In this document: one piece after another, positions 6,090-23,323 of the stretch
Position numbering within the stretch: position 1 is the stretch's first letter
Layout: every line of letters starts with the position of its first letter
NCBI RefSeq assembly: GCF_000012965.1
Contig: NC_007575.1
Span: forward strand, 186,001 to 250,000
Length of the DNA: 64,000 nucleotides
DNA from: Sulfurimonas denitrificans DSM 1251
GTDB taxonomy: Bacteria > Campylobacterota > Campylobacteria > Campylobacterales > Sulfurimonadaceae
Direction: 5' to 3'
Notes under the pieces: model-generated
The model's input: only the letters and a program-made list of their open reading frames with translations
The model's database searches: none
Told to the model about the DNA's origin: nothing
Made by a program: the position numbers and the translations under genes

Positions 6090-6094
6090 TAAAT

Positions 6095-6922: not shown

Positions 6923-8100
6923 ATATACCTATCTCCAAACCTTATTTTGATGAATGCGAAGATGAAAATATACTAAAACCGTTGCATAGCGGTTGGGTTG
7001 TTCAGGGGAAGTTTGTTCAAGAATTCCAAACTCTTTTTGCCTCACATGTAGAGGTAAAATATGCACATGCCACAACGAGTTGTACAACAGCTCTTCATTT
7101 GGCTTTAGTCGCTTTGGATATTGGAGCTGATGATGAAGTAATAATTCCATCTTTTACATATATAGCAACAGCAAATGTTGTAGAACATGTAGGTGCAAAA
7201 CCACTCTTCTGCGATATAGAACTTGATAGTTTTAACATGGATGTCAGTAAAATAGAAACTCTGATAACGAAAAAAACAAAGGTAATAATCGCTGTGAATC
7301 TTTTTGGACTATGTGCTAATTTAGAAGAGATAATAAAACTTGCAAAAAAATATAATTTAAAAGTTATAGAAGATTCTGCTTGTGGATTTGATGCTTGGCT
7401 TGGTCAGAAGCACTCTGGAACTTTCGGGGATATCGGCTGTTTTTCTTTCCATCCAAGAAAGTCTCTTTGCACTGGAGAGGGCGGAATGCTAATTACGAAT
7501 GATGATGAACTTAACTCAAAAATAGCACAGCTAAAAGACCACGGCGCAAGTAAAAGCGATATGTTAAGACATAAAGAAGGCGGAAGTCTGCTTCCCGAGT
7601 TTAACTTTGCGGGTTTTAATTATAGAATGACTGATATGCAAGGAGCACTTGGTGTTTGTCAAATGAAAAAAGCATCTGAGATAATGTGTAAAAAAAGAAT
7701 TTTAGCTAAGAGATATGATGAGGCTCTAAAAGAGTTGAATTTTTTACAAGTCCCAACATTTAGTGTTGAGTATGTTCACGGCTATCAATCTTATGTCTGT
7801 TTATTTACAGACTCTCAAGATGTGAGAAATCTTACTAAAGAAAAGATAGATATTATAAATATAAAACGAAATATTTTTATGAAAAAGTTAGAGTCTTGCG
7901 GAATTGCTACAAGACAAGGTACTCACGCAGTTCATACTCTTGGTTTTTATAAAGAGAAGTATGACTTAAAGAGTGAAGATTTTTTAATGAGTTATGCAGC
8001 AGATAGACTCACTATTGCTCTTCCATTGTATCCACAGATGAGTGATGAAGAGTTTGATTATGTAGTATCTCAGCTTAAGAGTTGTTCAAACTCAGAGTGA
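6919..8100 (+). CDS. DegT/DnrJ/EryC1/StrS PLP aminotransferase
   Basis: This 393-residue protein belongs to the sugar aminotransferase family that converts nucleotide-linked keto-sugars to amino sugars with pyridoxal phosphate. Visible hallmarks are the N-terminal ISKPYFDE, the TSCTTALHLAL cofactor-binding stretch, the aspartate-bearing VIEDSACGFDA, and CFSFHPRKSLCTGEGG, where the lysine forms the Schiff base. It ends the plus-strand cassette, overlapping the methyltransferase by 4 bp at its start. Its last 31 bp overlap the 3-prime end of the convergent GT4 gene at 8070. It supplies an amino sugar, plausibly for the flagellar or surface glycan. Confidence 0.88.
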   Translation: MNIPISKPYFDECEDENILKPLHSGWVVQGKFVQEFQTLFASHVEVKYAHATTSCTTALHLALVALDIGADDEVIIPSFTYIATANVVEHVGAKPLFCDIELDSFNMDVSKIETLITKKTKVIIAVNLFGLCANLEEIIKLAKKYNLKVIEDSACGFDAWLGQKHSGTFGDIGCFSFHPRKSLCTGEGGMLITNDDELNSKIAQLKDHGASKSDMLRHKEGGSLLPEFNFAGFNYRMTDMQGALGVCQMKKASEIMCKKRILAKRYDEALKELNFLQVPTFSVEYVHGYQSYVCLFTDSQDVRNLTKEKIDIINIKRNIFMKKLESCGIATRQGTHAVHTLGFYKEKYDLKSEDFLMSYAADRLTIALPLYPQMSDEEFDYVVSQLKSCSNSE

Positions 8101-9164
8101 AAGCTATCAAAGCTTTTTTGCAAAGTAAACTTTTTGCAAATTTCATAAAGTTTGTTCCCTAAGTTTTGTTTATTGCTTTTGTTCTTTAGGTAATGAAGAA
8201 TCTTTTTTGAGAGATTTTCAGTATCGCTTAGTTCTACTAAAGACCCTTTTGGAAGTATCTCATCAGCACCTTTGTAGTTGTATGACACAATAGCTTTTTT
8301 CACACTCATAAGCTCTAAGATAGAGTTTGAAAAACCTTCATAGTATGATGGAAAAACAAAAAGAGAACATTTTTTTATATATGGGTATGGATTTGCAAAA
8401 CCTTTTAAAAGAACTCTGTTTTGCAAGTTCAACTCTAAAATCAAACTCTCCAACTCTTGCCTAAGTCCGCCATCACCAAGAATAATCAACTTCTCATTTA
8501 TTTCATCTTTTATATCATTAAAAGCGTAGATGAGGTCTTTTTGACCTTTTTGCGGATGTAAGCGTCCTACATTTAGTATGAAATTATTATGCTCTGTTTC
8601 ATCTTCAACAGATATCATTTCTTTAATACCGTTGTAGATAGTACGGCTGTTTATTGCCGAGTTTAGTTGTAGAAGTTCATTTTCAATATGTTTGGCAACT
8701 GCTATAATCAAGTCAGCTTTTTGGTAGCTTTCTTTAATCATCTCAAAGTAAAATGAACTCTCCAACAGATGAATAAAACTATCTTTTTTGTAGCTCTCAC
8801 TTAGACTGACTCGACAAGAGAGAACTTTTTTGCATCCGTTTTTTGTTTGAAGCAAAATGAAGTTGTTGTAGTCTTCGTAGCTGATAGTCAAATCTGCATC
8901 TAGGTCATGTAAGATTTTATCAAGCTCAGATGCTCTGTAATCAAACAGCTCTCTTCCCACTCCATCTTTTTTAATATCTACTTTTTTTGTTTTGATTTTA
9001 TGGATTTTTATTTTTTTATCTATGAAGTAGTTTAGAGCTTTGTTGTCTTCTGCGAGAATAATTGAAACATCATAGTAAGATGCTAAGTAGTTTGCTAAAG
9101 AAGAAACAGATTTTTGAACTCCTCCAGTTGAGAGATTTTGTGTGAAAAAGGCTATTTTTTTCAT
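8070..9164 (-). CDS. Glycosyltransferase family 4 (paralogue of the gene at 3941)
   Basis: This 364-residue GT-B enzyme starts MKKIAFFTQNLSTGGVQKS and carries NVGRLHPQKGQKDLIYAF near residues 193-210 and PSYYEGFSNSILELM in the nucleotide-sugar domain. It matches the protein at 3941 along its whole length, so the two arose by duplication and now flank the plus-strand cassette. It is the last gene of the long minus-strand run that begins at fliD, directly after the methyltransferase at 9165. Its 3-prime end overlaps the aminotransferase on the other strand by 31 bp, so both reading frames constrain that stretch. Confidence 0.85.
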   Translation of the reverse strand: MKKIAFFTQNLSTGGVQKSVSSLANYLASYYDVSIILAEDNKALNYFIDKKIKIHKIKTKKVDIKKDGVGRELFDYRASELDKILHDLDADLTISYEDYNNFILLQTKNGCKKVLSCRVSLSESYKKDSFIHLLESSFYFEMIKESYQKADLIIAVAKHIENELLQLNSAINSRTIYNGIKEMISVEDETEHNNFILNVGRLHPQKGQKDLIYAFNDIKDEINEKLIILGDGGLRQELESLILELNLQNRVLLKGFANPYPYIKKCSLFVFPSYYEGFSNSILELMSVKKAIVSYNYKGADEILPKGSLVELSDTENLSKKILHYLKNKSNKQNLGNKLYEICKKFTLQKSFDSFHSEFEQLLS

Positions 9165-9896
9165 TTATAACTTACAGCACACATATATTTCAGCACAGTA
9201 TTCATTGAACATATATGAGAGATTGTTTAATGCTCTAGAGAAATTTTCATCTAAATCGGCTAGTTGAATATCCGTATTTGGCTTAAACTGTACACCCTCA
9301 CAAACTACAATATTTAGTCCAGCATCTTTTATCTCTTGTTTTAAGATATTATGGTCATAGACTTTTATATGGTTTGAACTTATATCATTGTCATTTAGCT
9401 CATACGGAGAACTTAAAAAGCCCATTTCAACACCGACCAACCTATGAATACTCAAAGCATTTGGAACTATGATATGCAATCTTCCATCTTCACTCAGCCA
9501 GTTTTTTATCAGTTTTAAGAGCTTTACAGGCTCTTGTATATGTTCTAGCGAATCAGTTAAAAATATATCGCTAAACTTTTCATCAGGTTTATACTCTTCC
9601 CAAGATGAAAGTATAAAATTTACATCTTTGAGTTTTTCATCTTTTTGTATTTGAGATGTAAACTTATCATGCATATCAACAATTGTAAGTTTTTTAGACC
9701 ATCTAACTAAAATAGATGAGGTAGAACTACCATCAGTTCCTAGTTCTAAAACATTTTCACCGCAAAAATAGTTGTTAATCTTTTCATAACCGTATTTCTT
9801 TGTATTTAAATAAGAATACATTCTTTTGTCTTTAGTGCCTTTTTGCTTTTGTGCAATTATTTTATGTAAAACTTCAATTCTTTTTTTCATAATCAC
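9165..9896 (-). CDS. Class I SAM-dependent methyltransferase
   Basis: This 243-residue protein reads as a class I methyltransferase: NVLELGTDGSSTSSILV is motif I, IVDMHD carries the acidic ribose-binding residue, and FSDIFLTDSLEHIQEP is the DxLEH segment typical of Methyltransf_11/23. It overlaps the GT4 gene at 9874 by 23 bp, and either of two close ATG codons (9896 or 9890) may be used. Its stop directly abuts the GT4 gene at 8070. It is one of four methyltransferases in the minus-strand run, so the glycan is probably O-methylated at several places. Confidence 0.78.
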   Translation of the reverse strand: MIMKKRIEVLHKIIAQKQKGTKDKRMYSYLNTKKYGYEKINNYFCGENVLELGTDGSSTSSILVRWSKKLTIVDMHDKFTSQIQKDEKLKDVNFILSSWEEYKPDEKFSDIFLTDSLEHIQEPVKLLKLIKNWLSEDGRLHIIVPNALSIHRLVGVEMGFLSSPYELNDNDISSNHIKVYDHNILKQEIKDAGLNIVVCEGVQFKPNTDIQLADLDENFSRALNNLSYMFNEYCAEIYVCCKL

Positions 9897-10968
9897 TCAC
9901 TATGTTTTTTAAAATATTTTCAAATTTATGATGAACATCACCATACCGTTCTAATGAAGTGTAAGCATTTTTAACAAGCTTGTTTAAATCATTATCTAAA
10001 CAATATACTAACTTACTAACTAAACTATTTACATCATTATCTTTAAATAAAACACCGTTTTCATTGTCATTTACTAGCTCTTTTATCGGTTCAATATCCG
10101 AAGCCAATACTAGCGTGTTTTGAGAAAACGCTTCTAAAATAACATTTGGCTGACCTTCAAATCTAGATGCTAAAATCATTATATCTGCTTCATTTATATA
10201 GGGTAGGATTTCTTTTTTATAACCGTGAAATTTAATATATTTATTGAGATTTAATGAGTTTATTTCTTTTTCAAGTTTAGTATGTTCATCTCCATCGCCA
10301 ATAATGTGTAAGCATAGTCTCTCCAAATACTCTTTTTTCAAAAGAGGTAAGGCTTTAATGATGAGAAGTATGTTTTTTTGTATACTCAACCTACCTACAA
10401 CAACTATGTTCTTTTTGTGTGAATCAAAGATATTTTTAGGTTTTATGATTTTCATTGAGATTGGATTTGCTAAAACGGTTACTTTGGCATTTTTTATATT
10501 GAAGTTATCAAGCATATCTTTTTTTATGACTTCAGATTGCACCAAAACATTTGAGTTTGACAAAATAAATGACATTAAGTCTTTGTTTATCTCTGTGTGT
10601 TGTGGATAAGTTTCTATCTGTTTACTCAACTGATTTCTTACACAAATTAGCAAAGGCTTATCATATACTTTTGCAGATAGATAAGCTATGTAATTAACAA
10701 TAAAATCACTAAAACCTACTATTATCTCAACTTGTTTTACATATATGCTTAGTTCTTGTAAAATACTAAAAATATTTGTGGTTATTTTTTCATTTAAATC
10801 AATTAGCTCTACATAGTTTATTTTATCACTAATTTTATGTTTGTTGATTTTTTTTAAACTGACTAATGTAACTTGATGAGAGCATTTTACAAGGTATTCG
10901 CAGTGTGATAGTAAAACTTTTTGAGCTCCGCCTGTTGACATAGTGTCGATGATAAATAATATCTTCAT
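9874..10968 (-). CDS. Glycosyltransferase family 4
   Basis: This GT-B protein is about 364 residues long. I place the start at 10968, where ATGA overlaps the stop of the upstream gene, because MKILFIIDTMSTGGAQKVL is the family-typical beginning; an upstream ATG at 10980 adds four residues. The second domain shows VVGRLSIQKNILLII and ILASRFEGQPNVILEAF, the donor-binding loop and the E-x7-E motif. It differs clearly from the paralogous pair at 3941 and 8070. It overlaps both neighbours, consistent with one polycistronic message. Donor and acceptor are unknown. Confidence 0.83.
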   Translation of the reverse strand: MKILFIIDTMSTGGAQKVLLSHCEYLVKCSHQVTLVSLKKINKHKISDKINYVELIDLNEKITTNIFSILQELSIYVKQVEIIVGFSDFIVNYIAYLSAKVYDKPLLICVRNQLSKQIETYPQHTEINKDLMSFILSNSNVLVQSEVIKKDMLDNFNIKNAKVTVLANPISMKIIKPKNIFDSHKKNIVVVGRLSIQKNILLIIKALPLLKKEYLERLCLHIIGDGDEHTKLEKEINSLNLNKYIKFHGYKKEILPYINEADIMILASRFEGQPNVILEAFSQNTLVLASDIEPIKELVNDNENGVLFKDNDVNSLVSKLVYCLDNDLNKLVKNAYTSLERYGDVHHKFENILKNIVSDYEKKN

Positions 10969-11879
10969 TTTGTAAAACACATATTGTTTTTATCTTTTAA
11001 ATATCTGTTGATGATGGGCTTGTAGAGATTGCTAAAAATGTTTTCTAAAGCCCAGTTTGTAGAAGATGCGTACTCTGCCTTTAGCGGAAATTTGTACTTT
11101 TTGAGTCCAACACTATTTGCCATTAACTCTAAGTTTTTTGGATTAAAGCAGTTTAGATGCTCTAGTGGAAAGATGGCATTAAACTCATTTTGAAAATCTG
11201 ATGCATGGTTTATCTCTGTAACTTGTAGTTTTTCATAAAGAGCATCTGTGTTTGGTACTGCAACTCTAAGTATTGCATCTTTGTTTAAAAGGTTTGTTAG
11301 TTGTTTGAGCAGTGTTTTTGGACTGCTTAGATGCTCAAAAACTTGGTCACTTCTAATATAGTCAAATTTGATATCGCACTCTTGAAGTGAGACTATTTTT
11401 ATATTATTTTTTTGTAAGTTTTTAAGACGAACATCTGATAGCTCTACTGCATAAACATCAAAACCATGAGCTTTGGCTAAGATGGCAAAATCACCCCAAC
11501 CTGCACCAAAGTCTAGAATTTTTATGGTTGATGCGTCTTTGTTAAAGTGATGAAAAAGTAGATTTATCTCATACCCTAAGATATTGAAAAATCTACTATT
11601 ATATTTGCTCTTTTGATATTTATACGATTTTTCTGGATTTATCCATTTTTCATATAAAGTATATGAGAAATCTTCATCTGCAACCATTTGCTGGTAATGA
11701 TGCTCACAGTTTTTGCATTTTAACAATGTGTAAAAATCATCTTTTATAGTGTTAAAGTCCTCATCATTAAAACCATCATAAACAGAGAAAAAGTCGTAAA
11801 GTTTTTCATACTTAAACTCACAAACAGTAGAAGACTCTTTTGAGTCACAAACAGGGCAAGAGTCTCTTTTTTGTAGCAT
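10965..11879 (-). CDS. Class I methyltransferase with N-terminal zinc-ribbon-like motif
   Basis: This 304-residue protein begins with a CPVC...CKNC arrangement (CPVC at residues 8-11, CKNC about 55-58), a zinc-ribbon-like module often fused to sugar-modifying methyltransferases. A class I core follows with ILDFGAGWGDFAILA, VYAVELSD and DYIRSDQVFEHL. The order fits C-methyltransferase-like and Methyltransf_23 proteins of deoxysugar pathways. It sits 2 bp after the radical SAM gene at 11882 and overlaps the GT4 gene at 9874 by 4 bp. A sugar substrate is inferred from the neighbourhood. Confidence 0.78.
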   Translation of the reverse strand: MLQKRDSCPVCDSKESSTVCEFKYEKLYDFFSVYDGFNDEDFNTIKDDFYTLLKCKNCEHHYQQMVADEDFSYTLYEKWINPEKSYKYQKSKYNSRFFNILGYEINLLFHHFNKDASTIKILDFGAGWGDFAILAKAHGFDVYAVELSDVRLKNLQKNNIKIVSLQECDIKFDYIRSDQVFEHLSSPKTLLKQLTNLLNKDAILRVAVPNTDALYEKLQVTEINHASDFQNEFNAIFPLEHLNCFNPKNLELMANSVGLKKYKFPLKAEYASSTNWALENIFSNLYKPIINRYLKDKNNMCFTK

Positions 11880-11881
11880 CT

Positions 11882-12910
11882 CTAATTGTCTTTTTTTGTA
11901 AACTTATGATAAAGGCAATCGTCCGAACACTCTTTATCGCATCCATCGATGAAATTTTTTCTAAATCTTTGAAACTCTGAGCCATTCCAAATTTCTTCTA
12001 AAGTATTTTTATGGATATTTCCTAAATTATATTCAACTGATTTGTTTGTAGTGCATCCTATTACAACTCTACCTATATTCTCCCCAGGTTCATCATTTGG
12101 GAGTGGTACATTAATCATTATGGATTCTCTCCAAGGCTTATTACATTCTAAATCATTGTATATATCAATGTTTATATCAAAATATTCAGGACTTTGTAGT
12201 CTTATATTATTGTCATTTGCTCTTTTTTTTAACTTTTCAATTTTACTAGAAACTAGTTCTCGTTCATATCTCATAGATTTTATATTGTTAATGTAGTCGT
12301 TTGAGTCTTCTGCTACTAAAACATTTAAACTCCACTCATCAATACCTAAGTCAATACAGATATCGAGCATCCCATCAAGTTCATTAAAAGTATCTTTATT
12401 TATAATAGTGTTAACAACAATTTTCATTTTATTATCGTTAAGCTTTCTTAGTTTATTTAAACTTTCAATATTTTTATACCAAGCATCAAATTGGTCTCTA
12501 CCTTGTATCTCTTTAAAAGTTTCTCTATTGTCAGCATCTAAATCAGTTGAAAAATATAGCAAATCACTATCTATAATCTCTTGTAAAGACTTAGAAATCA
12601 CAGAAGAGGCATTTGTTAAAACAGATGATGTACAACCAACATTTTTGATATATTTAAATATTTTAAATATATCAAAATTTAAAAAAGGCTCACCAGTAGC
12701 ACATATATTTATATGCTTTACTCCATAGCTTTTTAATATATCTATCTGTTCTTTTGCAGTGTCAAAACTTATTTTATAGTTATTTTTTTCTGTGTATGTA
12801 GTTCTTGTTTGACTATGATATGGACAGTAATTACATTTAAAATTACACAAACCTTCTATATTAATAGTAGCACTTTTAGGGTAGTTGTAACTAATTATAT
12901 TATGATTCAT
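11882..12910 (-). CDS. Radical SAM/SPASM protein
   Basis: This 342-residue protein has the radical SAM motif CNFKCNYC (residues ~17-24) within TINIEGLCNFKCNYCPY, a CATGEPFLNF stretch that fits the GxGEP-like SAM-binding motif, and a C-terminal run of cysteines (ECNKPW, VIGCTTN, GCDKECSDDCLYH) typical of SPASM auxiliary clusters. It overlaps the membrane protein gene at 12900 by 11 bp. Together with the protein at 14430 it brackets that membrane protein. A redox modification of a glycan precursor is possible, but no specific substrate can be inferred. Confidence 0.82.
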   Translation of the reverse strand: MNHNIISYNYPKSATINIEGLCNFKCNYCPYHSQTRTTYTEKNNYKISFDTAKEQIDILKSYGVKHINICATGEPFLNFDIFKIFKYIKNVGCTSSVLTNASSVISKSLQEIIDSDLLYFSTDLDADNRETFKEIQGRDQFDAWYKNIESLNKLRKLNDNKMKIVVNTIINKDTFNELDGMLDICIDLGIDEWSLNVLVAEDSNDYINNIKSMRYERELVSSKIEKLKKRANDNNIRLQSPEYFDINIDIYNDLECNKPWRESIMINVPLPNDEPGENIGRVVIGCTTNKSVEYNLGNIHKNTLEEIWNGSEFQRFRKNFIDGCDKECSDDCLYHKFTKKDN

Positions 12911-14429
12911 TTTTGAAATCCTCTATTTTATATATAATACAGTTATCTTCTTTATCTATAAACTCTAAATTGTCATTTTGTGTGTTTTTGATAAAGTTTT
13001 TATAATTTTGTATTGCTAACTCATTCGTTAATATATGGGTAATTCCAAATTTTTGTTTTAGTACTCTTAAATTTGTACCAGGATATGGGTAGTTTCCTGT
13101 GATAAGATGTAAATCCTCTTGTGAAACTTTAGAATTTGTCCAAGAAGTTGAATAGTAACAAATTTTTGCTTTTTTTAAATTGTATAATAATATCCAACTA
13201 TATTGACCTAAAGGATAGATGATATTTTCTTCTTTATCTATTTGTTCTATTAACTTATAAGGCACTTTAATATTTTTGTAATATTTTAAATATAACCTGA
13301 TGTACTGTGTATAACATATTATATACCATATAGAAATAATAATCAAAACAGTGTTGTTTAGATTGGCAAATATCTCAACGAATAAAAAAATTTGAATAAA
13401 TAGAGTATGCTCCAAATACCTTTCAGCTTCACCTATAAACACAAATTTTGGAATTAAAACTAACAAAAACAGTATAAACGAAGATAGAAATACTATAAAT
13501 AGAAAATCACTATCTTGACTTAAATAGTCTTGATAAAATAAAACAATTAATGCTTGAGGCATAAAAAAGATTAAAATATGAAGAGGATATTGATCCATCA
13601 TAAACCAGTTAAGCATCTTTGTAGTTAAAAAGTTTTGTTTAAATCTCTTAAAGTAGCAACTTATACAAGCTTTTTGCTCTATTAAACCGACATAATTTTT
13701 AGCCAGTGTAGAATAATAATACTTCATACTCAATACATTTCCACGAATAACAATATAAACTTTATTGCCAAAAATTAAAAAAGATATTATAAGTCCGAGT
13801 ATAGTTAATACAAGTGCTTCATAAAATCCGAATAAGGCTAATATGATGCTTATAAACCAAATGAATTGAAATCCGAATATACTAGATATGTTTATCAACA
13901 CACTGCAAACAAGTCCTATGATTAGCCAAGTTGTTGAGCCTTCTTGATAAAAGAATGCTAATGAAACAAAAAATATAAACAATAAAAGTTGAGACAATAC
14001 TCTAGGAGTTGCATTGTAGGCTCTAGGACCCATACCGATTCTTAAAAACGATGGTGAAATTGCCATTAAAAATCCAACCCAAAGATGTCCGTTTGCATTT
14101 TGCATATCTAGGTTAATAAAAAGTTTATGAGAAATCCACATCGCTAAAGCAATATGAATAACATCTATTATTGCCGATGAGATTTTTTCTGCCAAATAAA
14201 TGTTTTTATCAGGAACAAAAGAGAATAACCAGTGAAATAACCAAGGATAGTCCATGTTATCATCTAAACTAAAACGACCTTTGTCTTTTGGTATTTTATA
14301 GTTATGTTTTTTAATAATTCTAGAGATTGCCATGTGAAAGTAAGTGTCATAATTCCAACTATTTTTAGAGATTAAGCGAGGTATTATGCGTAATATAAAG
14401 GCTATAAGCAATATAAGCCAAACTGTCAT
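12900..14429 (-). CDS. Multi-spanning membrane protein, GT-C glycosyltransferase-like
   Basis: This 509-residue protein has about ten or more hydrophobic segments across residues 1-400 and a soluble C-terminal part of about 110 residues. Near the N-terminus, after the first helix, there is a loop with NSWNYDTYFHMAI. An acidic loop after helix 1 is the catalytic signature of GT-C enzymes such as STT3/PglB and protein mannosyltransferases, which use polyprenyl-linked donors outside the membrane. I see no WWDYG motif, so a bacterial oligosaccharyltransferase proper is unlikely. Flippase or polymerase function cannot be excluded. It abuts the radical SAM gene at 14430 and lies in the fliD-led run. 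Confidence 0.65.
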   Translation of the reverse strand: MTVWLILLIAFILRIIPRLISKNSWNYDTYFHMAISRIIKKHNYKIPKDKGRFSLDDNMDYPWLFHWLFSFVPDKNIYLAEKISSAIIDVIHIALAMWISHKLFINLDMQNANGHLWVGFLMAISPSFLRIGMGPRAYNATPRVLSQLLLFIFFVSLAFFYQEGSTTWLIIGLVCSVLINISSIFGFQFIWFISIILALFGFYEALVLTILGLIISFLIFGNKVYIVIRGNVLSMKYYYSTLAKNYVGLIEQKACISCYFKRFKQNFLTTKMLNWFMMDQYPLHILIFFMPQALIVLFYQDYLSQDSDFLFIVFLSSFILFLLVLIPKFVFIGEAERYLEHTLFIQIFLFVEIFANLNNTVLIIISIWYIICYTQYIRLYLKYYKNIKVPYKLIEQIDKEENIIYPLGQYSWILLYNLKKAKICYYSTSWTNSKVSQEDLHLITGNYPYPGTNLRVLKQKFGITHILTNELAIQNYKNFIKNTQNDNLEFIDKEDNCIIYKIEDFKNES

Positions 14430-15533
14430 TTAACCACCTCTATATTCAAGTTTAGTGTTAAAAAAATCAAATACTTTAAGGGAGCTATATTTGTAAGACT
14501 TTGAGTCCTTTTCCCAGATATTTGTGTAAGCATCCCATAGATTGCAATCTTTACAAGCTTCACATGATTTAAAATTTAAGTCAAGTTGATTATCTCTAAA
14601 ATCTTGATTGTTTTTTGAAGTATAAATCTCACTTAGTGTATTTTTATTAATGTTTCCTATAACCATAGACTCCTTTTCTTTTGCGTGCCAGTTAAACATA
14701 TAGCATCCCAAAACATCACCATTAGAAATGATGGAAGTTGAATACCAAGGAGCGACACAAGGGTATCTTTCTTTTTTATGATTTTCATCTTCATAACTTG
14801 GTGTCATTCCATCAATAGGATGTCCCATCTTGTACATATGACGAATAAAAGCTTTATCTACAAAGCTACTCCATTTTTCTACAAAAGAATTTGAGAGATG
14901 TTTGTTCTCTTTTGTTTCTATCATAAAAGTTTGTGTAAATGGAGTTTTAGAACCCAAAGAGTCTTTGATTTTTTTAAAATTTATTATATTTTTTTTTACT
15001 TTAGTAAAGCTATCCGATTGTGTAACAAATTTATGTCCATCTTCATCCCCTGCGAATAAACTAAACTGAATATTATCAAGACCGCTTTTTATTAAATCTC
15101 TTGCTATTTTTTCATTTAATAAAAGTCCGTTTGTAGATATAATAGTGTTTACAAGGGGTTTTTGTTCTTTCATATAGGATATAAACTTTGCTAAATTCTT
15201 AAACTCTAAAGTTTCTCCAATAGAAGATATATCAAAACTATAAAAAGAATCATTTGGTACACTTGAAACTATATTTTTTAAAGTTTCAAAAGACATTTCT
15301 TTTTTTTGTTTATACATATCTGCAACTTCATTTTGTGAATATGGACAAATCTTACACTTAAACATACATGTGTGTTCGTTAAAAGATATATTAATAACTC
15401 TAGGAATATTTTTGTTATATAAAAACATCTTTTGTCCAGCCATGCTCTTTAGTAGGAAGTTTTTTGCAAATCCTTTTAGTGAACGAGTAGAATAAAATTT
15501 ATATATTAAGTTTTTATTATTTACATACGACAT
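14430..15533 (-). CDS. Radical SAM/SPASM protein
   Basis: This 367-residue protein carries CMFKCKICPY around residues 56-65, the CxxxCxxC cluster of radical SAM enzymes, and further cysteines near the C-terminus (RYPCVAPW, VLGCYMFN, CEACKDCNLW) that fit a SPASM domain. The 50-residue N-terminal extension before the motif is basic (LKGFAKNFLLKSMAGQK) and could bind lipid or RNA. It shares one base with the methyltransferase at 15533 and abuts the membrane protein gene, so all three are likely co-translated. Its substrate is unknown. Confidence 0.8.
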   Translation of the reverse strand: MSYVNNKNLIYKFYSTRSLKGFAKNFLLKSMAGQKMFLYNKNIPRVINISFNEHTCMFKCKICPYSQNEVADMYKQKKEMSFETLKNIVSSVPNDSFYSFDISSIGETLEFKNLAKFISYMKEQKPLVNTIISTNGLLLNEKIARDLIKSGLDNIQFSLFAGDEDGHKFVTQSDSFTKVKKNIINFKKIKDSLGSKTPFTQTFMIETKENKHLSNSFVEKWSSFVDKAFIRHMYKMGHPIDGMTPSYEDENHKKERYPCVAPWYSTSIISNGDVLGCYMFNWHAKEKESMVIGNINKNTLSEIYTSKNNQDFRDNQLDLNFKSCEACKDCNLWDAYTNIWEKDSKSYKYSSLKVFDFFNTKLEYRGG

Positions 15534-16288
15534 TAGTTGCTTTTGTCCTTAAGTGCAGTAAGCTCATAAACACCTGTTTGTCCATGATAAGTACCTTTAA
15601 AAAAACTATGTGCTTCTTGAGAGTTGAGCTTTCCTTCATCAGCAACAACAATATCAAAAAAATCATATAACTTTAGAGCATCTAAAAGTTCATTTTTTTC
15701 TATTATAACATCTAAACCTTCTTGATATAAACTTTTATTGTTTATATATCTTTCGGTATTTATAATACAATCAAGAGCATATTTTCTTGGATTATAAGAA
15801 CTCGTTTTGTTATGCTCATTTATGAGAAGATTTAGATACCATCCCATTCCATTTGCGTTTAAATATAATTTTGCTTTTGGTTTTAGTAATCTTTTAAATT
15901 CTTGTAAGGTCTTTTTCCAATCTGTTAAAAAAAACACACCATAGCAAAAAATGGCATCAAAAGAGTTATCTTTAAAATTAGTGCTATTGATACTTTGTAG
16001 TGAAGTTGTTAAGTTTTTTATATTTAATTCTTGTGCTAACTCTTCTGTAAAAGAAACACGCTCTTTAGATATGTCAATAGAATAAACATTGGTGTTGTGT
16101 TTAGCTAAAGGAATACTCCATTGACCAAATCCACATCCTGCATCTAAAACATTTTCAAAGTTAGTAAATTCATATTGTAAAATACGCTTCTCGTAAACTT
16201 TTATATCATTAGAGTAGATACGTTTTAAAAATTCAAAATCTTGTTTTTGTAAAATTTTTTTATATTTTTCAATTATATTATTAGTCAT
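15533..16288 (-). CDS. Class I SAM-dependent methyltransferase
   Basis: This 251-residue protein has motif I VLDAGCGFGQWSIPLA (about residues 48-63), VYSIDISKERV with the ribose-binding aspartate, and FDAIFCYGVFFLTDW as motif IV. The Methyltransf_11-type core is followed by a ~100-residue C-terminal part. It begins 3 bp after the Rossmann-type protein at 16292 and overlaps the radical SAM gene by one base. Given the run of glycan genes it is probably a sugar methyltransferase, but no acceptor can be read from the sequence. Confidence 0.8.
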   Translation of the reverse strand: MTNNIIEKYKKILQKQDFEFLKRIYSNDIKVYEKRILQYEFTNFENVLDAGCGFGQWSIPLAKHNTNVYSIDISKERVSFTEELAQELNIKNLTTSLQSINSTNFKDNSFDAIFCYGVFFLTDWKKTLQEFKRLLKPKAKLYLNANGMGWYLNLLINEHNKTSSYNPRKYALDCIINTERYINNKSLYQEGLDVIIEKNELLDALKLYDFFDIVVADEGKLNSQEAHSFFKGTYHGQTGVYELTALKDKSN

Positions 16289-16291
16289 GAT

Positions 16292-17314
16292 TTACCAATA
16301 TTTTTCGTCTTTAAAAGACATTGCGGGGTAGTTGTTTTGCATAAAATCTTTATACTCACTCTTTTTTAAGTTTAAGCTATTTGCTTCAATCATTCCAGTA
16401 GCAACTTTAAGTCCAGCCGTATGTAATTCGATAATTACATTGCTACCTATGTTATCAACTGTATAACTCATATTGCCAAATGAAGCTGGAACTTTTGGAA
16501 TATAATTAAAATTAGCATTAGTGAAGTCAACTGAACCACAAATATGAATAACATCTACATCTGATCTTATATCTTTTGTTTTAATGTAGCCACTATCGCC
16601 AATTAGTAACTTATTATTATGGTGTTCAAGTAAAACAATAGCATCATAGGAATCTATATTAATAATATTCTTGTATTCATTTATAATAGTATAATTATAG
16701 TCATTTTGATTTAAAACCTTTTGCACATATAGTGTGAAATGGTTACAACCTAAAATTAATATATTTGATGAAATGGGTGTATGATTCAAAGTTAATAAAA
16801 ATTTTAAAACCATATATCCTAAATACTCTTTAGTTCTTAGTCTAGAGTCATCCTCATTTGTACCATATACCTTTATGTTTTTTTTGGCACATTCTTCTAT
16901 GTCAAGGTCACTTTTCCTATACTCCCAAGTTTCCCACATTAGTGGGATAACACATTTTGAATTAAGTTTATTTATAATTTTATCATCAATGGGTCTTAAA
17001 AAACCTGTATTTGTTAAAATATCAACTTCATCTAAATTTAGACTGTTTATATCTGTAATAATTTCAACTCTATCTTCGAGATTTAAATATTTTAATAAAT
17101 TATTTGTTTGCTTTTTAACATCCTCAACCGAACCATATTTAGAATCTTTAGTAAATGCATAAACATATTTTGCTCCAGCTAATGCAGCAATAGCTGGTGT
17201 GACAACATAGTTTCCTGTGGCAGCTTCTGTTAAAATTATTTTATTTGATAAGTCTAAGTTAAAATTAGCAATAGATTTTTTAATTTGATTTTTAATACTT
17301 GCAAAATTATCCAT
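16292..17314 (-). CDS. Unknown protein with Rossmann-like domains
   Basis: I place the start at 17314 (MDNFASIKNQ), where ATGGATAA overlaps the asnB stop by 8 bp; an upstream ATG at 17380 would add 22 residues that overlap asnB much further. The resulting 340-residue protein has an N-terminal half with ILTEAATGNYVVTPAIAALAGA and KYVYAFTKDSKYG and a second Rossmann-like beta strand ISSNILILGCNHFTLYVQ near residue 183. This two-domain layout resembles S-adenosylhomocysteinase or 2-hydroxyacid dehydrogenase folds, but I see no classical GxGxxG. I do not recognise the family. Its place between asnB and a methyltransferase suggests a role in sugar modification. Confidence 0.6.
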   Translation of the reverse strand: MDNFASIKNQIKKSIANFNLDLSNKIILTEAATGNYVVTPAIAALAGAKYVYAFTKDSKYGSVEDVKKQTNNLLKYLNLEDRVEIITDINSLNLDEVDILTNTGFLRPIDDKIINKLNSKCVIPLMWETWEYRKSDLDIEECAKKNIKVYGTNEDDSRLRTKEYLGYMVLKFLLTLNHTPISSNILILGCNHFTLYVQKVLNQNDYNYTIINEYKNIINIDSYDAIVLLEHHNNKLLIGDSGYIKTKDIRSDVDVIHICGSVDFTNANFNYIPKVPASFGNMSYTVDNIGSNVIIELHTAGLKVATGMIEANSLNLKKSEYKDFMQNNYPAMSFKDEKYW

Positions 17315-19274
17315 AGATATTACTCCACTCTTCAAAGTTAAGCAAACTCCAGATAAAGAGTCTTCTGTTTTGTTTCCCATTTAGGTGTTCATTTACAGAA
17401 CTTTGTACTGCATCTTTGTCCATGTATTTGTATATATTTGCATCTTTGTTTAAGAGTTTCTCTTTAACAAACTCTATGCTTTCCCCCTTAAACCAACTGG
17501 CATCTGGACTTGAAAATCCTTGTTTTGTCAATGTTGTAATATTATTTGGGATATAACGGCTTGCCGTTTCGCGTAAAATATTTTTCCCGTCATTACTTTT
17601 TTGAAAATATTTGTGCTGTTTATTGCCAGTTTCATTTTCATTCATGCTTATAATATTTTGAAGGTTTGATAGTTTTAGATTTACTGGAATTTGCTGAGAA
17701 AAATCGACTAAATCATTATCCAAAAAGGGAACCCTAGTTTCAAGCGAGTGCGCCATAGAGAGTTTGTCCTCAACTACGAGCAAACCATGTAGAAATGTTT
17801 TTGCTTCAAAATATAGTGAATGATTTACATAATCTTCAGGAGAAGTTAGTCTATTGCTATGTTTTTTAAATACATCAGCAAAAATATCTCTTGTGCAAAC
17901 ATCTTTGACATCTCCCCAGATTGGCTTAAATACTTTACAAATCTCTCTGTTTGGGATTAGTCTTTGCCAAAATTCATAATATTTATTTATGTATTCATCA
18001 AAATCAACATTATTTACAGCTCTATAATATCTCCAAGGATAGCCTGCAAAAAGTTCATCACTTCCTGTTCCTGCTAGAACTACTTTTACAAATTTGCTTG
18101 CAAGTTTGTTGGCATAGTAGTTTGGATAACTCTGTCCAACACGAGGTTCTTCAAGATGGTAGGTAAAGTCACTTAAGCATCTTTCCATATCCCCTGATTT
18201 TAAGACCATTTCATAGTGTTCTGTTTTAAAAAGGTATGACATATACTCAGCTTTTTGTCTTTCATCATATGCGAGTTCCAAACCGCTTGCACTGTTTAAG
18301 TCAAAACCGACTGTGAAAGTCTTTAGATTCTTAATGCTTTTAGAAGCTATAGCTGCAATAGCCCCGCTATCTATTCCGCCACTCAAATAACTTCCAACCT
18401 CTACATCACTTACTAGTTGTCTATTTACGGCCTGTGTAAATAGCCTATCAAGTTCTTCTGTATACTCTCTTTCATCTTTTAAGTTTAGTGGTTTAGTAAA
18501 ATCAAAATCCCAATATTGCTGTGTTTTTAAAGAGTGTTCTTTTTCTCTAAGATTTATCTTTATGTAGTTTCCAGCAGGAAGAAGTTTTATATTTTCATGG
18601 AGTGTTTTATCTGTAAAAATGTTTTGAAAAGTAAAGTACTCAACAAGAGCTGCTTTGTCAACTTCATAGCTGTAATCTTTGTACTCCAAAATAGATTTGG
18701 TCTCACTTGCAAAAAGTAAGGTTCCATCGTTGTTAAGAGTGTAGTAAAGAGGTTTTATACCATATCTGTCCCGTGTTAAAAACAGTTCTTTTTTAAAGTT
18801 GTCATACAGAGCAAAAGCAAACATTCCATTGAATTTTTTTATACACTCTATTCCCCACTCTATATATGAGTAGATAATTACTTCTGTATCGCTATTTGAT
18901 TTGAATCTGTGTCCGCATATTTGAAGTTCTGCTTTTAACTCTTTAAAGTTATATATCTCACCATTATAGGTAATCCAAATATTTTGAGACAAATCGCTCA
19001 TAGGCTGGTGTGCATTTATGCTTAAATCTTGAATAGATAGCCTAGTATGACCAAAAAACAAGTCCCAATCATGAGGATGAAGTTCATTAGTATTTATATT
19101 TTTATAGTAAGCTTTAAAAAAAGATATTCGTTTTGTGTGGCGACATCCAGTATGAAAAAAACATGAGCCACTACCATCGGGACCTCTGTGATGAAGGGTT
19201 TTAATCATAGCATTAGTGTATTCTATATTGAGAGATGGCTTTTTTAATGATACTACGCCAATAATTCCACACAT
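17307..19274 (-). CDS. asnB: Asparagine synthase family amidotransferase, second copy
   Basis: This 655-residue protein starts MCGIIGVVSL with nucleophile Cys2 and has the glutaminase domain followed by the ATP-binding YLSGGIDSGAIAAI near residues 290-302. It is 72 residues longer than the copy at 2202, with an insertion near residues 40-70 (HTGCRHTKRISFFKAYY), and it diverges strongly from that copy. It starts 2 bp after the big glycosyltransferase gene and overlaps the unknown Rossmann protein by 8 bp. Two AsnB-type enzymes in one glycan locus suggest amidated uronic acids or similar residues in the product (inference). Confidence 0.85.
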   Translation of the reverse strand: MCGIIGVVSLKKPSLNIEYTNAMIKTLHHRGPDGSGSCFFHTGCRHTKRISFFKAYYKNINTNELHPHDWDLFFGHTRLSIQDLSINAHQPMSDLSQNIWITYNGEIYNFKELKAELQICGHRFKSNSDTEVIIYSYIEWGIECIKKFNGMFAFALYDNFKKELFLTRDRYGIKPLYYTLNNDGTLLFASETKSILEYKDYSYEVDKAALVEYFTFQNIFTDKTLHENIKLLPAGNYIKINLREKEHSLKTQQYWDFDFTKPLNLKDEREYTEELDRLFTQAVNRQLVSDVEVGSYLSGGIDSGAIAAIASKSIKNLKTFTVGFDLNSASGLELAYDERQKAEYMSYLFKTEHYEMVLKSGDMERCLSDFTYHLEEPRVGQSYPNYYANKLASKFVKVVLAGTGSDELFAGYPWRYYRAVNNVDFDEYINKYYEFWQRLIPNREICKVFKPIWGDVKDVCTRDIFADVFKKHSNRLTSPEDYVNHSLYFEAKTFLHGLLVVEDKLSMAHSLETRVPFLDNDLVDFSQQIPVNLKLSNLQNIISMNENETGNKQHKYFQKSNDGKNILRETASRYIPNNITTLTKQGFSSPDASWFKGESIEFVKEKLLNKDANIYKYMDKDAVQSSVNEHLNGKQNRRLFIWSLLNFEEWSNIYG

Positions 19275-19275
19275 A

Positions 19276-21390
19276 TTAATCTTTTATTGCATCTAAAAAT
19301 GTTTTGTTTATCTGTTTTAATGCTTCTTCATTTATAGGTTTTCTTTTTTCAAGTACAAATTCAACGAGCTCTTTGTTGTTTATAAGTTCATCGGCAACAT
19401 CTATATAGTTTTGTATTGAATATGGCCATACATATTTATCATACAAATAGGACTCTTTGAGTTTGTCTTTTTCACTCCATTCATTCCACAGTGCTATATA
19501 TGGTCTGTTTTTATACATATACTCATTTAAGCTTTCACCGTTTGAAATTTTAAAAGGTTCTAGCCACAAATCAATTACATGACCATAAACATGTGTGTCT
19601 ATATATCCAGGGAAAAAGAATCTATCGGATATGCCTAATTGTTCAATTCTCTTTTTGATAGATTCTTGTTTTCCGCTTCCACAAGCCAAATAGATAGTTT
19701 GCGGGTTTTTTTTCATGATAGATGCTACAGTTTGGAGATACTCATCATCCTCTATTTTGATTAGTCTTCCAATAGTTCCTAAAATAAAACTATCTTTTGG
19801 GTAACTATCCTTGATTTTTTTAACTTCATTCATATCTACATGAGGGTTATAATAATCTTCTTCCATGTTAATGCTAAAACTATCAAAATCTAATCTATCC
19901 CCAATACTACCATGAGCTATTTTTTTATCAATATTTTCTAAATCATACTCATTATTTCCATGGCTCCAGTAAATCTGTTTAGGAGCAGTGCGAGTTGTAA
20001 AGAGGAAGTTGTACTCAGGACGAGAGTTGAAGCCTATTATCATGTCTATCTTCTCTTCTATAAGTCTATCTCTAACCTTGAGGGTTTTTTCTATTATCTC
20101 ATAAAATGGATACTCATCACCAACATACTCTTTATGTAAATCTACATACTTAAAACCCAACTCTTTTAACTCTTGGACTGTTTCATCTAGTGAGCCAGAC
20201 TCTATAAAATTTAGATTATAGATGATAAACTCATACTCAGCAGTAGGCGCTTTGGATAGAGATTCTAAAAGAGAGTAAAAAACGTTGTATATAGAGTAGG
20301 GTATGACTCTATCTATCAAAAAAGCAACTTTTATTTTTTTACTATTATCTATCTTTTTTTTGTTTGGTTTTAAATCATATTTCTTGATTAATTTACTCTT
20401 TATTAAATTCTCTATAGGTTTTTCTATCTTATCGTTAAACTCTTTTAGCCCATCTTGAGATGGTGCAGTCTCGTCCCAAGACATAAGCAAAGGAGTGTAC
20501 ATGTAAAATATTAATTCATCTAGTTCTCTTTGAATTGCTTTTTCAAAAATAGGATATAAAACTTTATAAATAGCTATATAGTCTCTGCTCCTATTGTATT
20601 TTAAAACACTTAGATAGTAGAGCTTAAAGATTTTCTTTTTTTGTTCCAAGGTACTTGATTCAAAAAAGTTATCATCAAAAAGAGCAAGAGAAAACTTTTC
20701 AATATACTCTTTAAACCTATCTTGATTAAATATTGTCTTTATGAGAACGAAGTTTTGTATTATGTCTAAAATTGTTTGATGTTCTGAGAGCAGCTTAAAA
20801 TACTCAGCTTCAACCTCTTTCAAAGGAAGACCTTGTATAAGCTCCAAAGCATAGTTTAGATGGATGTTAAAGATATTTTTATCTCTTTGAAGATGCTTTA
20901 GTATAGATGTTGAGAGTTCTATAATTATGGGTTCTATGGTTAGAATATGCTCTTTAAAAAAAATTGTTATTGTGAGTAATTTTAAGATTATATCTTTGTT
21001 TGGCTCTTCATTATCTCTAACATATTGTAAAAAAACCAACAACATGACATTGAGATTTGAGGCGCACACATCTGTATCTAAAAAAGTGTTGACTATATCT
21101 TCTTTCTGTTTTTTTATGGAGTCTATTGCCTGAGTAATGCTTTGCGCAATCTGCTCTTTTGTATCATCTGAAAAACCAACACCATCAAAATTTAATTTTA
21201 TAATTTGAGGGTGTATAGTTTTTGAGAAGTAATCAAAAAAAGTCCCAATTGGAACATTAATACAGTTTAATGGTGCTTCTTGTAGAAAAACACCATCATA
21301 AAAAAAGAGAGTATCTACACTATTTTCACTGTGTAAAGCATCATAAAGAGCAACTTGAGGATTAAAATAGTAGGTGCTAACTTGCTTCAT
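19276..21390 (-). CDS. Large GT-B-type glycosyltransferase next to fliD
   Basis: This 704-residue protein has a helical N-terminal region (about residues 60-340), then a C-terminal region from about residue 345 with KKIKVAFLIDRVIPYS, IDMIIGFNSRPEYNF, QIYWSHGNNEYD, ILGTIGRLIKI and DLWLEPFKISNGESLNEYM. That layout recalls GT41/SPINDLY and HMW1C-type protein glycosyltransferases: a helical domain followed by GT-B halves with a late donor-binding loop. The assignment to GT41 is only a resemblance. The gene lies 8 bp after fliD on the same strand, so it is almost certainly in the flagellar transcript. It is the best candidate in the window for direct flagellin or cap protein glycosylation. Confidence 0.7.
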   Translation of the reverse strand: MKQVSTYYFNPQVALYDALHSENSVDTLFFYDGVFLQEAPLNCINVPIGTFFDYFSKTIHPQIIKLNFDGVGFSDDTKEQIAQSITQAIDSIKKQKEDIVNTFLDTDVCASNLNVMLLVFLQYVRDNEEPNKDIILKLLTITIFFKEHILTIEPIIIELSTSILKHLQRDKNIFNIHLNYALELIQGLPLKEVEAEYFKLLSEHQTILDIIQNFVLIKTIFNQDRFKEYIEKFSLALFDDNFFESSTLEQKKKIFKLYYLSVLKYNRSRDYIAIYKVLYPIFEKAIQRELDELIFYMYTPLLMSWDETAPSQDGLKEFNDKIEKPIENLIKSKLIKKYDLKPNKKKIDNSKKIKVAFLIDRVIPYSIYNVFYSLLESLSKAPTAEYEFIIYNLNFIESGSLDETVQELKELGFKYVDLHKEYVGDEYPFYEIIEKTLKVRDRLIEEKIDMIIGFNSRPEYNFLFTTRTAPKQIYWSHGNNEYDLENIDKKIAHGSIGDRLDFDSFSINMEEDYYNPHVDMNEVKKIKDSYPKDSFILGTIGRLIKIEDDEYLQTVASIMKKNPQTIYLACGSGKQESIKKRIEQLGISDRFFFPGYIDTHVYGHVIDLWLEPFKISNGESLNEYMYKNRPYIALWNEWSEKDKLKESYLYDKYVWPYSIQNYIDVADELINNKELVEFVLEKRKPINEEALKQINKTFLDAIKD

Positions 21391-21398
21391 ATAGTATT

Positions 21399-22787
21399 TT
21401 AATTATTTGCTTCAGCATCTATCATCATTTGAAGAGATGAAAATTGTGAGTTGATTCTGCTTATCATTCCATCATATGCAGTAAATCTTTTTGCCATTAT
21501 TTCATATCTTGTATCAAGTGATGCTTTTGCTGCTGCATGATTCTTAGATAGACTCTTCCCCTCGTTTTTAAGGTCGGTTTCAAAGTTGCTGAGTAAATTT
21601 CCATATCCAGTATAACTCTTTAGCTTCTCATCAACAGTGGTAAAAAAACCTGTAACTTTATTTCCTTCACTATTAGTTCCTCCAGTAAAAAACAGTTTTA
21701 CTGCATCAGGGTCCTCTTTTAGTTTTGTTTCTAAAGTTGCTTTATTAAAGCTCATCTTTCCACTTCTATCTATGTCTATTCCATAGTTTATTAGAGAGTT
21801 ATTATTTGTATTTAGTGAGGTTATCGTTCTTGTTAAGTCTCTAGAGATAGACTTTACAAATGAGTTTCCATTGAAAATCCCCTCAGCCCCAGTCGCTTCA
21901 TCTTTTAATGTCATATCATGTAGATTAGCTATAAGTGCATTATAGCTATCTGTAAAGAGTTTTAACTCATCACTAATAGCAGTACTATCTTGTGATATAT
22001 CAACTAAAGAGAAGTCTCCTTCTTGTTTTAGTTTGATATTTACGCCAAGAATAAGATCACTAACCTCATTCGTTGCTCTTGTCATTGCAATACCGTTATA
22101 TTTAAAAGTTGCATCTGATGCTGTTTGTACTTTTTCATATCCATTAGGATTTGTAATCGCATTGTAAGGATCAAATAAAGCAGCATTTAAAGAGCCTGCG
22201 CCAGCAGTTCCATCATCAGTATCTGAGACGCTTATAGCTTGAGAAGCTCCTGTTGATTTTGATGAGAGAACTAAGTTATAAGAGCCATTTCCTGTTTGTA
22301 AAACAGAAGCTGAAACAGAGCTACCCGCAATTTCAGTAATAGATTGAGCTAGAGCTGAGAGGGTTGTTGTTCCATCATAAGGTATTTCAAAATTATTTAT
22401 TTTTAAAACACCTGCACCCGATGCTATTGTTGAAGCAGGAGTAGCAACTGAGCCAAATTTTGTTATATCTTTTTTAGCAAGAGCTACCGTCTCTAGTGAA
22501 AAAGACTCTACAGTTGAACCTGCATCTACCTTAACTTCTGCTTTACCACTACTTTTAACACTCTTGCTATCAAAAATAGTGTCATAACTAAGAGCTGACG
22601 CACTCGCTTTAAAAGTCTTCATAAGAGAATCTAACAACTTATAAGCATCTTGTTTTTGGTTATTAAGAGTAATTTTGTTTTCTAAAGGTTTAACGATTCT
22701 TGATGTATCAGCCTCTTTTAGCTGGTCAATAACATCAGCTGTCAATACTCCTGAACCAATACCTAGTGAGCTAATATTTGAACCCAT
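21399..22787 (-). CDS. fliD: Flagellar hook-associated protein 2 (filament cap)
   Basis: This 462-residue protein is FliD, which forms the cap under which exported flagellin folds at the filament tip. The N-terminus SSLGIGSGVLTADVIDQLKEAD is the family signature, the middle is rich in Ser, Thr, Ala and Gly, and the C-terminus is a coiled coil ending in FSSLQMMIDAEAN. A ribosome binding site AAGGA lies 8 bases before the ATG. A sigma28-like promoter lies 40-66 bp upstream of the start codon. It diverges from fliS, unlike the enterobacterial fliD-fliS-fliT order, and heads the long minus-strand run of glycan genes. Confidence 0.95.
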   Translation of the reverse strand: MGSNISSLGIGSGVLTADVIDQLKEADTSRIVKPLENKITLNNQKQDAYKLLDSLMKTFKASASALSYDTIFDSKSVKSSGKAEVKVDAGSTVESFSLETVALAKKDITKFGSVATPASTIASGAGVLKINNFEIPYDGTTTLSALAQSITEIAGSSVSASVLQTGNGSYNLVLSSKSTGASQAISVSDTDDGTAGAGSLNAALFDPYNAITNPNGYEKVQTASDATFKYNGIAMTRATNEVSDLILGVNIKLKQEGDFSLVDISQDSTAISDELKLFTDSYNALIANLHDMTLKDEATGAEGIFNGNSFVKSISRDLTRTITSLNTNNNSLINYGIDIDRSGKMSFNKATLETKLKEDPDAVKLFFTGGTNSEGNKVTGFFTTVDEKLKSYTGYGNLLSNFETDLKNEGKSLSKNHAAAKASLDTRYEIMAKRFTAYDGMISRINSQFSSLQMMIDAEANN

Positions 22788-22826
22788 AATAAATCCTTTT
22801 TAAATAATATTTAAAGTATAACACTA

Positions 22827-22853
22827 TAATCGACTATACTCCAATTATATTTA
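22827..22853 (-). promoter_or_regulatory. Sigma28-type promoter of the fliD run
   Basis: On the minus strand TAAA (22850-22853) is followed by 17 bases ending in GT and then CGATTA (22827-22832). This equals the FliA consensus spacing TAAA-N15-GCCGATAA with one change at the GC. It lies 40 bp before the fliD ATG. Recognition by FliA is inferred. Confidence 0.6.
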
Positions 22854-22890
22854 GATAAATTTTATAAAGGATAATTTTACGATTTATCTA

Positions 22891-22917
22891 TAAACAAAAT
22901 AGAAGTTGTGTCGATAT
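22891..22917 (+). promoter_or_regulatory. Sigma28-type promoter of fliS
   Basis: TAAA (22891-22894), 17 bases ending in GT, then CGATAT (22912-22917). CGATAT is the -10 form described for Campylobacter FliA promoters. The spacing is identical to that of the divergent fliD promoter, and the start codon of fliS at 22961 is about 43 bp downstream. Confidence 0.65.
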
Positions 22918-22960
22918 ACTCTCAATGAAAGAAACAAACGGCGATCAAAAAGGACTCAAC

Positions 22961-23323
22961 ATGTATGGCTCAAGCGCTCACAATATTTATGCACAAAACA
23001 ACGTAGGTATAGAATCTCCAGCAAAACTTATAGAGATGTTGTATGAGGGTGTACTTCGCTTTAATGCTCAAGCAAAAAAGGCTATAAATGATAAAAATAT
23101 TGAAAAAAAGATTTATTGGACAAATCGCTCTATAGCAATTGTAGTGGAGTTGGTCTCAGTGCTTGATAAATCACAAGGCGAGGTTAGTGATTATTTAAAC
23201 GGTCTTTATAATTATCAAATTCAGCTTTTAACAACTGCAAGTTTAAGGGGCGATACAACAAAGCTTGATGAAGTTAGTACTGTTTTTAAAGCTCTTCTTG
23301 AGGCGTGGAGAGAGACTACATAA
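22961..23323 (+). CDS. fliS: Flagellar export chaperone FliS
   Basis: FliS binds the C-terminus of unexported flagellin in the cytoplasm and keeps it from polymerising. The protein is 120 residues when started at 22961, where AAAGGA lies 8 bases before the ATG and the sequence MYGSSAHNIYAQNNVGIESP matches the family start (Y-x-QN-x-hydrophobic-x-S-P). An ATG at 22925 would add 12 residues with no family match and no ribosome binding site. The core PAKLIEMLYEGVLRF and the four-helix pattern are clear. The next gene starts directly after the stop codon. Confidence 0.93.
   Translation: MYGSSAHNIYAQNNVGIESPAKLIEMLYEGVLRFNAQAKKAINDKNIEKKIYWTNRSIAIVVELVSVLDKSQGEVSDYLNGLYNYQIQLLTTASLRGDTTKLDEVSTVFKALLEAWRETT

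Follow-up and report, generated by a model that had tools for sequence, protein, structure and literature searches.

The window analysed here, a stretch of 64,000 nucleotides, covers positions 186001-250000 of the single contig of 2,201,561 bases that constitutes the Sulfurimonas denitrificans genome, and carries on its minus strand twelve consecutive genes headed by fliD, the gene for the filament cap. These twelve genes are likely to form a late flagellar operon dependent on sigma28 (FliA), in which fliD is followed by an exchangeable flagellar glycosylation cassette. If so, one late promoter would set the supply of both the cap protein and a glycosylation pathway, and the position behind fliD would serve close relatives as an exchange site for their flagellar sugars.

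A sequence-only reading of the window had described twelve same-strand genes separated by gaps of at most about 10 bp or overlapping, and the open reading frame (ORF) calls agree with it: the run extends from fliD (22787-21399) to a GT4 glycosyltransferase gene (9164-8070) and its largest gap is 8 bp. The junctions, from fliD onward, are +8, +1, an overlap, +3, -1, 0, -11, +2, -16, -23 and 0 bp, the overlap of genes 3 and 4 being 8 bp if gene 4 begins at the ATG at 17314, which has GGAG upstream as read from the sequence, and 74 bp for the longest ORF. With runs defined as co-directional genes at a gap limit of 20 bp, no other in the window comes near this one, the second longest having four genes. 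An internal terminator or a strong internal promoter had been named beforehand as what would refute a single transcript, and no such signal was found above chance by computation within the run, where terminator-like matches (5 found, 5.4 expected) and sigma70-like promoter matches (82 found, 85.5 expected) are at chance level; nor do window positions 1-26000, the run included, hold a sigma54-like site when up to 2 mismatches are allowed. The single strand, the short gaps and internal signals not above chance are together what is expected of an operon, and co-transcription of the twelve genes is accordingly proposed here as probable.

The same reading had placed a sigma28-like promoter ahead of fliD, and this is upheld by the motif, its position and its conservation in congeners. 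The site, TAAATATAATTGGAGTATAGTCGATTATA (22853-22825, minus strand), has its near end about 37 nucleotides from the fliD ATG, and a stronger site of the same form precedes the divergent fliS. As the fliS site spans 22891-22919, the right end of 22917 given earlier for the run reaches into the fliS promoter; thus, from the extent 8070-22917 the twelve-gene run itself stands, while neither its right end nor 8070 as the end of the glycan genes could be retained. The fliS ORF start at 22925 leaves almost no leader after the sigma28 site, so that translation probably begins at the ATG at 22961, which has AAGGA ahead of it. A sigma28 matrix built from congeners only, with S. denitrificans left out, was scored at 163,880 positions (82 kb of the S. 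denitrificans genome), and the flaA site ranked first (26.6), that of fliS second (23.8) and that of fliD seventh (11.3). TAAA-N17-CGAT is present in 36 of 61 congener regions upstream of fliD, fliS and flaA, whereas in the same regions spacings of 12, 14-16 and 18-22 gave 0-2 occurrences and a spacing of 13 gave 8. Ahead of fliD the motif was found in 31 of 38 loci with collinear fliD and fliS and in 17 of 28 divergent loci. The bare pattern TAAA-N17-CGATWTA was rejected as a specific marker (7 occurrences in the genome, against 15 for a backwards control); since the pattern alone is not specific, the case for sigma28 rests on position, the spacing control and conservation. A FliA gene was found in the genome, and the flagellin genes differ in their promoters, flaA having a sigma28 site (5484-5512 of locus L004) and flaB a sigma54-like site, TGGAACACTCATTGC (6926-6940 of L004). 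In Campylobacter jejuni flaA is under FliA and flaB under RpoN (PMC11187230), and the sigma28 -10 element is CGATwt (PMC4626219), with which the -10 element here agrees; both correspondences support the motif calls.

Comparison within the genus indicates that the arrangement recurs. Two FliD types are present, one encoded by collinear fliD-fliS genes (32-37% identical to the S. denitrificans FliD) and the other by divergent fliD/fliS genes (44-71%); the FliD type strictly matches the fliS orientation in all 45 loci of relatives in which fliS is visible. Among 29 loci of the divergent type, comprising 27 congener loci, L129 (fliS outside the piece) and S. denitrificans itself, co-directional glycan genes lie at most 80 bp behind fliD in 14 (12 of the 27, L129 and S. 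denitrificans). The first genes behind fliD in these 14 are pseB-pseC in ten, pseF in one and the gene for a 704-aa protein, gene 2 of the run, in three (S. denitrificans and the relatives G263 and G234); the Pse identities were confirmed by NCBIfam equivalog cut-offs in two loci. In G263 and G234 the gene 2 homologue is at -1 bp from fliD, which is followed by 16 and 24 genes, respectively, and unbroken fliD-headed runs of like length occur in G263, G234, G290 and G237.

The run lies in an island whose frame, topA-flagellins-Maf-variable genes-fliD-fliS, is recurrent among congeners, the variable part consisting of pse genes, HldE/transketolase genes or the cassette with the 704-aa protein. 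Past gene 12 three convergent genes (5250-8100, plus strand) are followed by three minus-strand genes (1149-5071) with an SIS isomerase gene opposite, and a further minus-strand run then ends with the only Maf gene of the genome, adjoining two flagellin genes and topA. The island, which holds glycosyltransferase and sugar-synthesis genes between flagellins/Maf and fliD-fliS as expected of a flagellin glycosylation island, continues for about 11 kb past the edge of the window, up to the flagellins; this reach, and the convergent genes at 5250-8100 as part of the same cassette, had been missed by the sequence-only reading. No pse genes were seen in the S. denitrificans island. Because its distal DUF354 and AsnB proteins match the ends of the G263 and G234 fliD runs, the twelve-gene run looks like the proximal part of a longer island, which in the relatives appears to be one longer fliD-headed run and here to be split by the opposite-strand block at 5250-8100. 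The 3' ends of gene 12 and the convergent DegT gene overlap by 31 bp (8070-8100), and no terminator-like site was found between them.

The product of gene 2 models as a protein glycosyltransferase resembling O-GlcNAc transferase (OGT) and SPINDLY. The model, built with 28 sequences, has a predicted local distance difference test score (pLDDT) of 73, mostly above 85 in the GT-B half and of low confidence in the first 230 residues, and consists of an alpha-helical N-terminal part followed by the GT-B half, which is the overall fold of OGT and HMW1C. The top PDB matches by Foldseek are SPINDLY and O-GlcNAc transferase, followed by bacterial OGT and HMW1C/NGT (E-value 6e-16), and comparison with XcOGT in VIA-align gave a Z-score of 19.0 and a root-mean-square deviation of 4.3 over 360 residues. 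SPINDLY, OGT and HMW1C/NGT act on proteins. By sequence the relationship is faint: a search against PDB chains gave no match, a profile against PDB sequences reached OGT at an E-value of 0.08, below significance, and the only Pfam match is Glycos_transf_1, just above the cut-off.

The neighbourhoods of gene 2 homologues are often flagellar, 13 of 34 loci having flagellin, Maf or FliD no more than 10 kb away; Sulfuricurvum has the order fliD>pseB>pseC-like>..>gene 2 and an Aquificota genome the order maf>fliS>fliD>..>gene 2. In the Helicobacteraceae loci L091 and L093 flagellin and Maf adjoin the run gene 2>radical SAM>one gene>DegT>AsnB, the last-named radical SAM, DegT and AsnB proteins being 47-60% identical to those encoded at 5250, 6919 and 17307; as these loci hold in one run the relatives of genes from both arms of the S. 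denitrificans locus, the two arms would belong to one pathway. The earlier suggestion of a probable flagellar glycan with late-gene timing is thereby supported by comparison, through the conserved sigma28 motif, the recurrent fliD-headed glycan runs and the OGT-like gene behind fliD. The OGT-like family, found here mostly in Campylobacterota, is in turn pointed to as comprising probable flagellin glycosyltransferases with an unusual radical SAM/amidotransferase sugar chemistry. That the glycan is attached not to flagellin but to FliD or some other late filament protein, hence the coupling of gene 2 to fliD, seems improbable: gene 2 is indeed directly behind fliD in three Sulfurimonas, S. denitrificans included (-1 to +8 bp), and close behind it in the Aquificota genome, but the homologues of Helicobacter and Nautiliaceae are next to flagellin and not to fliD.

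Several observations weigh against a single late operon for a flagellar glycan. Among the three sigma28 sites that of fliD is the weakest, and a TATACT box located between it and the start of fliD could act as a sigma70 promoter. The congener sequences are related, so that the counts given above are not independent. The G+C content of genes 4-8 and 10 is 26.7-27.7%, against 33% for the window, and these genes may have been inserted recently, together with a promoter of their own. On such grounds the run might be divided into two or more transcripts, fliD, gene 2 and the AsnB gene being under sigma28 and the low-G+C genes 4-12 a recent insert with a constitutive promoter, in which case the glycan as a whole would not be late-timed. 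This we hold to be unlikely: genes 2 and 3 are the conserved part of the cassette, no relatives of gene 7 were found in 199 genomes of the same order and sigma70-like matches do exist within the run, but they are only as frequent as chance predicts, the junctions are tight or overlapping all along, and the fliD runs of G263, G234, G290 and G237 are equally long and unbroken. Furthermore, gene 7 encodes a membrane protein, which is odd for a purely cytoplasmic glycosylation route, a group of Helicobacter has the gene 2 homologue behind mreC, and the homologues of G040, G049 and G056 stand on contigs that carry no flagellin gene. Surface polysaccharide loci commonly contain GT4 enzymes and a membrane protein, and with some gene 2 homologues away from flagellin it could be supposed that the genes make a lipopolysaccharide O-chain or a capsule and stand behind fliD by accident. 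There is little likelihood of this, as family searches found no flippase, ligase or polymerase families among the twelve genes, there is a separate sugar locus next to msbA at 600 kb, the slot has flagellins, Maf and fliD as its borders and is occupied in congeners by pse genes, and the predicted fold of gene 2 is that of protein glycosyltransferases.

For the late operon with its glycosylation cassette, the following course of events may be proposed. Once FlgM is exported, FliA would transcribe flaA, fliS and fliD from their matching promoters, and read-through from fliD would yield the OGT-like enzyme, whose helical N-terminal part would bind flagellin (or FliD), the sugar being added in the cytoplasm before export. 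The AsnB, radical SAM/SPASM and methyltransferase enzymes of the run, together with the convergent DegT, radical SAM and methyltransferase enzymes, would build and decorate the sugar, and the GT4 enzymes would extend it. From the general knowledge of the DegT, AsnB, SPASM radical SAM and methyltransferase families, this sugar probably carries amino, amide and methyl groups. A separate role is possible for Maf, which could, for instance, use a nonulosonic acid supplied by the 600-kb locus. FlmG modifies flagellin in the cytoplasm before export (PMC7591256), and cytoplasmic modification before export is reported for Maf (PMC4065374).

The position of glycan genes behind fliD may also bear on their regulatory class. 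Where pseB leads its own operon by collinear fliD-fliS genes, a sigma54-like site with at most 2 mismatches was found in 9 of 16 loci (at most 1 mismatch in 6), against a shuffled expectation of 0.04 and 3 of 87 other leading genes, and the sigma28 motif in none of the 16. Among operons with pseB placed behind fliD, 4 of the 5 in which the two genes are at least 57 bp apart retain the sigma54-like site and all 5 with a gap of at most 24 bp lack it, and none is found ahead of gene 2 in the three genomes; these counts are small and uncorrected for relatedness. Since sigma54-like sites often stand ahead of free-standing pseB and are missing from the tightest fliD operons, capture behind fliD might have shifted glycan genes from the sigma54 (middle) to the sigma28 (late) class within one genus, the tightest operons, including that of S. 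denitrificans, depending on the fliD sigma28 promoter and the glycan being made only with the late filament proteins. This we put forward tentatively and with some doubt. The genus would offer a natural series, from a separate sigma54 promoter through a sigma54 site within a fliD operon to sigma28 alone, for asking if the timing of flagellin glycosylation matters to filament assembly.

Hypervariable glycan islands between flagellin and fliD, with GT41 transferases and co-transcription with a filament gene, are already known (PMC4875605, PMC5109656, PMC13317340, PMC5207246). The islands of Enterobacteriaceae (PMC4875605), Geobacillus (PMC5109656) and Clostridium (PMC13317340) have hypervariable glycan blocks by flagellin, bounded by fliD in Clostridium and low in G+C in Enterobacteriaceae, and GT41/SPINDLY-type transferases, DegT and methyltransferases recur in such islands, as here. 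Unlike them, the present locus has fliD at the head of the glycan run with a sigma28 site and a cassette rich in radical SAM/SPASM and AsnB proteins; the term 'radical SAM' is absent from the main text of the Enterobacteriaceae paper (PMC4875605). The Caulobacter enzyme FlmG is similarly soluble, with a helical N-terminal part of tetratricopeptide repeats (TPR) that binds flagellin and a C-terminal GT-B domain (PMC7591256), whereas gene 2 encodes a protein about 100 residues longer with no TPR family match by sequence, and FlmG uses pseudaminic acid. The Helicobacter pylori flaB-jhp0106 (Maf) operon under RpoN (PMC5368276) likewise places flagellin glycosylation behind a filament gene and a sigma-specific promoter, although with one gene and sigma54 in place of eleven genes, the cap gene and sigma28. 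In the Clostridioides difficile type B flagellin locus (PMC5207246) sugar-synthesis and transferase genes are co-transcribed with a filament gene, as they would be here, but this gene is fliC instead of fliD and the sugar chemistry is another. Literature searches on this locus or genus found nothing on the locus. As far as the literature found shows, the fliD leader under sigma28 with exchangeable cassettes and the radical SAM/AsnB-rich cassette with an OGT-like enzyme are new, as is likely the change from sigma54 to sigma28.

Table 1. Features of the S. denitrificans fliD locus and the adjoining island (window positions)
Feature	Position	Strand	Basis
sigma28 promoter-like site of fliD, TAAA-N17-CGAT	22825-22853	-	motif, spacing control, conservation
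sigma28 promoter-like site of divergent fliS	22891-22919	+	same motif form
fliS, flagellin chaperone	22925-23323	+	Pfam PF02561; real start probably 22961
Gene 1: fliD, filament cap	21399-22787	-	Pfam PF07195/PF02465
Gene 2: putative 704-aa OGT/SPINDLY-like protein glycosyltransferase, helical N-terminal part and GT-B	19276-21390	-	Pfam, model, structure matches, neighbours
Gene 3: AsnB-type glutamine amidotransferase	17307-19274	-	family match; 58-59% identical to AsnB behind gene 2 in Helicobacteraceae loci
Gene 4: no Pfam or NCBIfam match	16292-17314	-	
Gene 5: S-adenosylmethionine (SAM) methyltransferase	15533-16288	-	family match
Gene 6: radical SAM/SPASM protein	14430-15533	-	family match
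Gene 7: 509-aa membrane protein, about 8 hydrophobic segments, possibly GT-C (guess)	12900-14429	-	
Gene 8: radical SAM/SPASM protein	11882-12910	-	family match
Gene 9: SAM methyltransferase	10965-11879	-	family match
Gene 10: GT4 glycosyltransferase	9874-10980	-	family match
Gene 11: SAM methyltransferase	9165-9896	-	family match
Gene 12: GT4 glycosyltransferase	8070-9164	-	family match; 46% identical to gene in G263 fliD run
DegT aminotransferase, convergent, same cassette	6919-8100	+	57-60% identical to DegT between gene 2 and AsnB in L091, L093, L094
SAM methyltransferase, convergent block	6095-6922	+	family match
Radical SAM/SPASM protein, convergent block, same cassette	5250-6089	+	47-49% identical to gene behind gene 2 in L091, L093, L094
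GT4 glycosyltransferase, distal island	3941-5071	-	67% identical to gene in G234 fliD run
Second AsnB-type amidotransferase, distal island	2202-3953	-	73-74% identical to genes near ends of G263, G234 fliD runs
DUF354 protein, distal island	1149-2201	-	83-85% identical to last gene of G263, G234 fliD runs
SIS-domain (GmhA-like) isomerase of island	598-1152	+	family match

Two products of the run could be placed in no family: gene 4 was assigned none by the Pfam and NCBIfam searches, and for gene 7 a PDB sequence search gave no match and the single-sequence model was unusable (pLDDT 41). The GT-C label of gene 7 is a guess because it is based only on the first loop and hydrophobicity.

The idea that all homologues of the 704-aa protein are flagellar was rejected on account of the Helicobacter group mentioned above, in which the mreC-linked loci (L101, L102, L107, L109, L110, L112-L115 and L118) follow lpxA-clpX-mreB, an order recognised by families in L113 and by size pattern in the other loci. 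By Maf in S. denitrificans lies a cassette of an HldE-like kinase, a nucleotidyltransferase, a split transketolase and a radical SAM protein (L004 10232-17140; L050; L055 with L085), and the HldE/transketolase cassette is common to G011 and in part to G002. Off the island, a legionaminic-acid-type cluster (LegC, NeuD, NeuB, NeuC and a cytidylyltransferase) lies by msbA at L120 7226-13780, about 601-608 kb in the genome. Just past fliS, at window positions 23652-23749, is an ordinary small signal recognition particle RNA.

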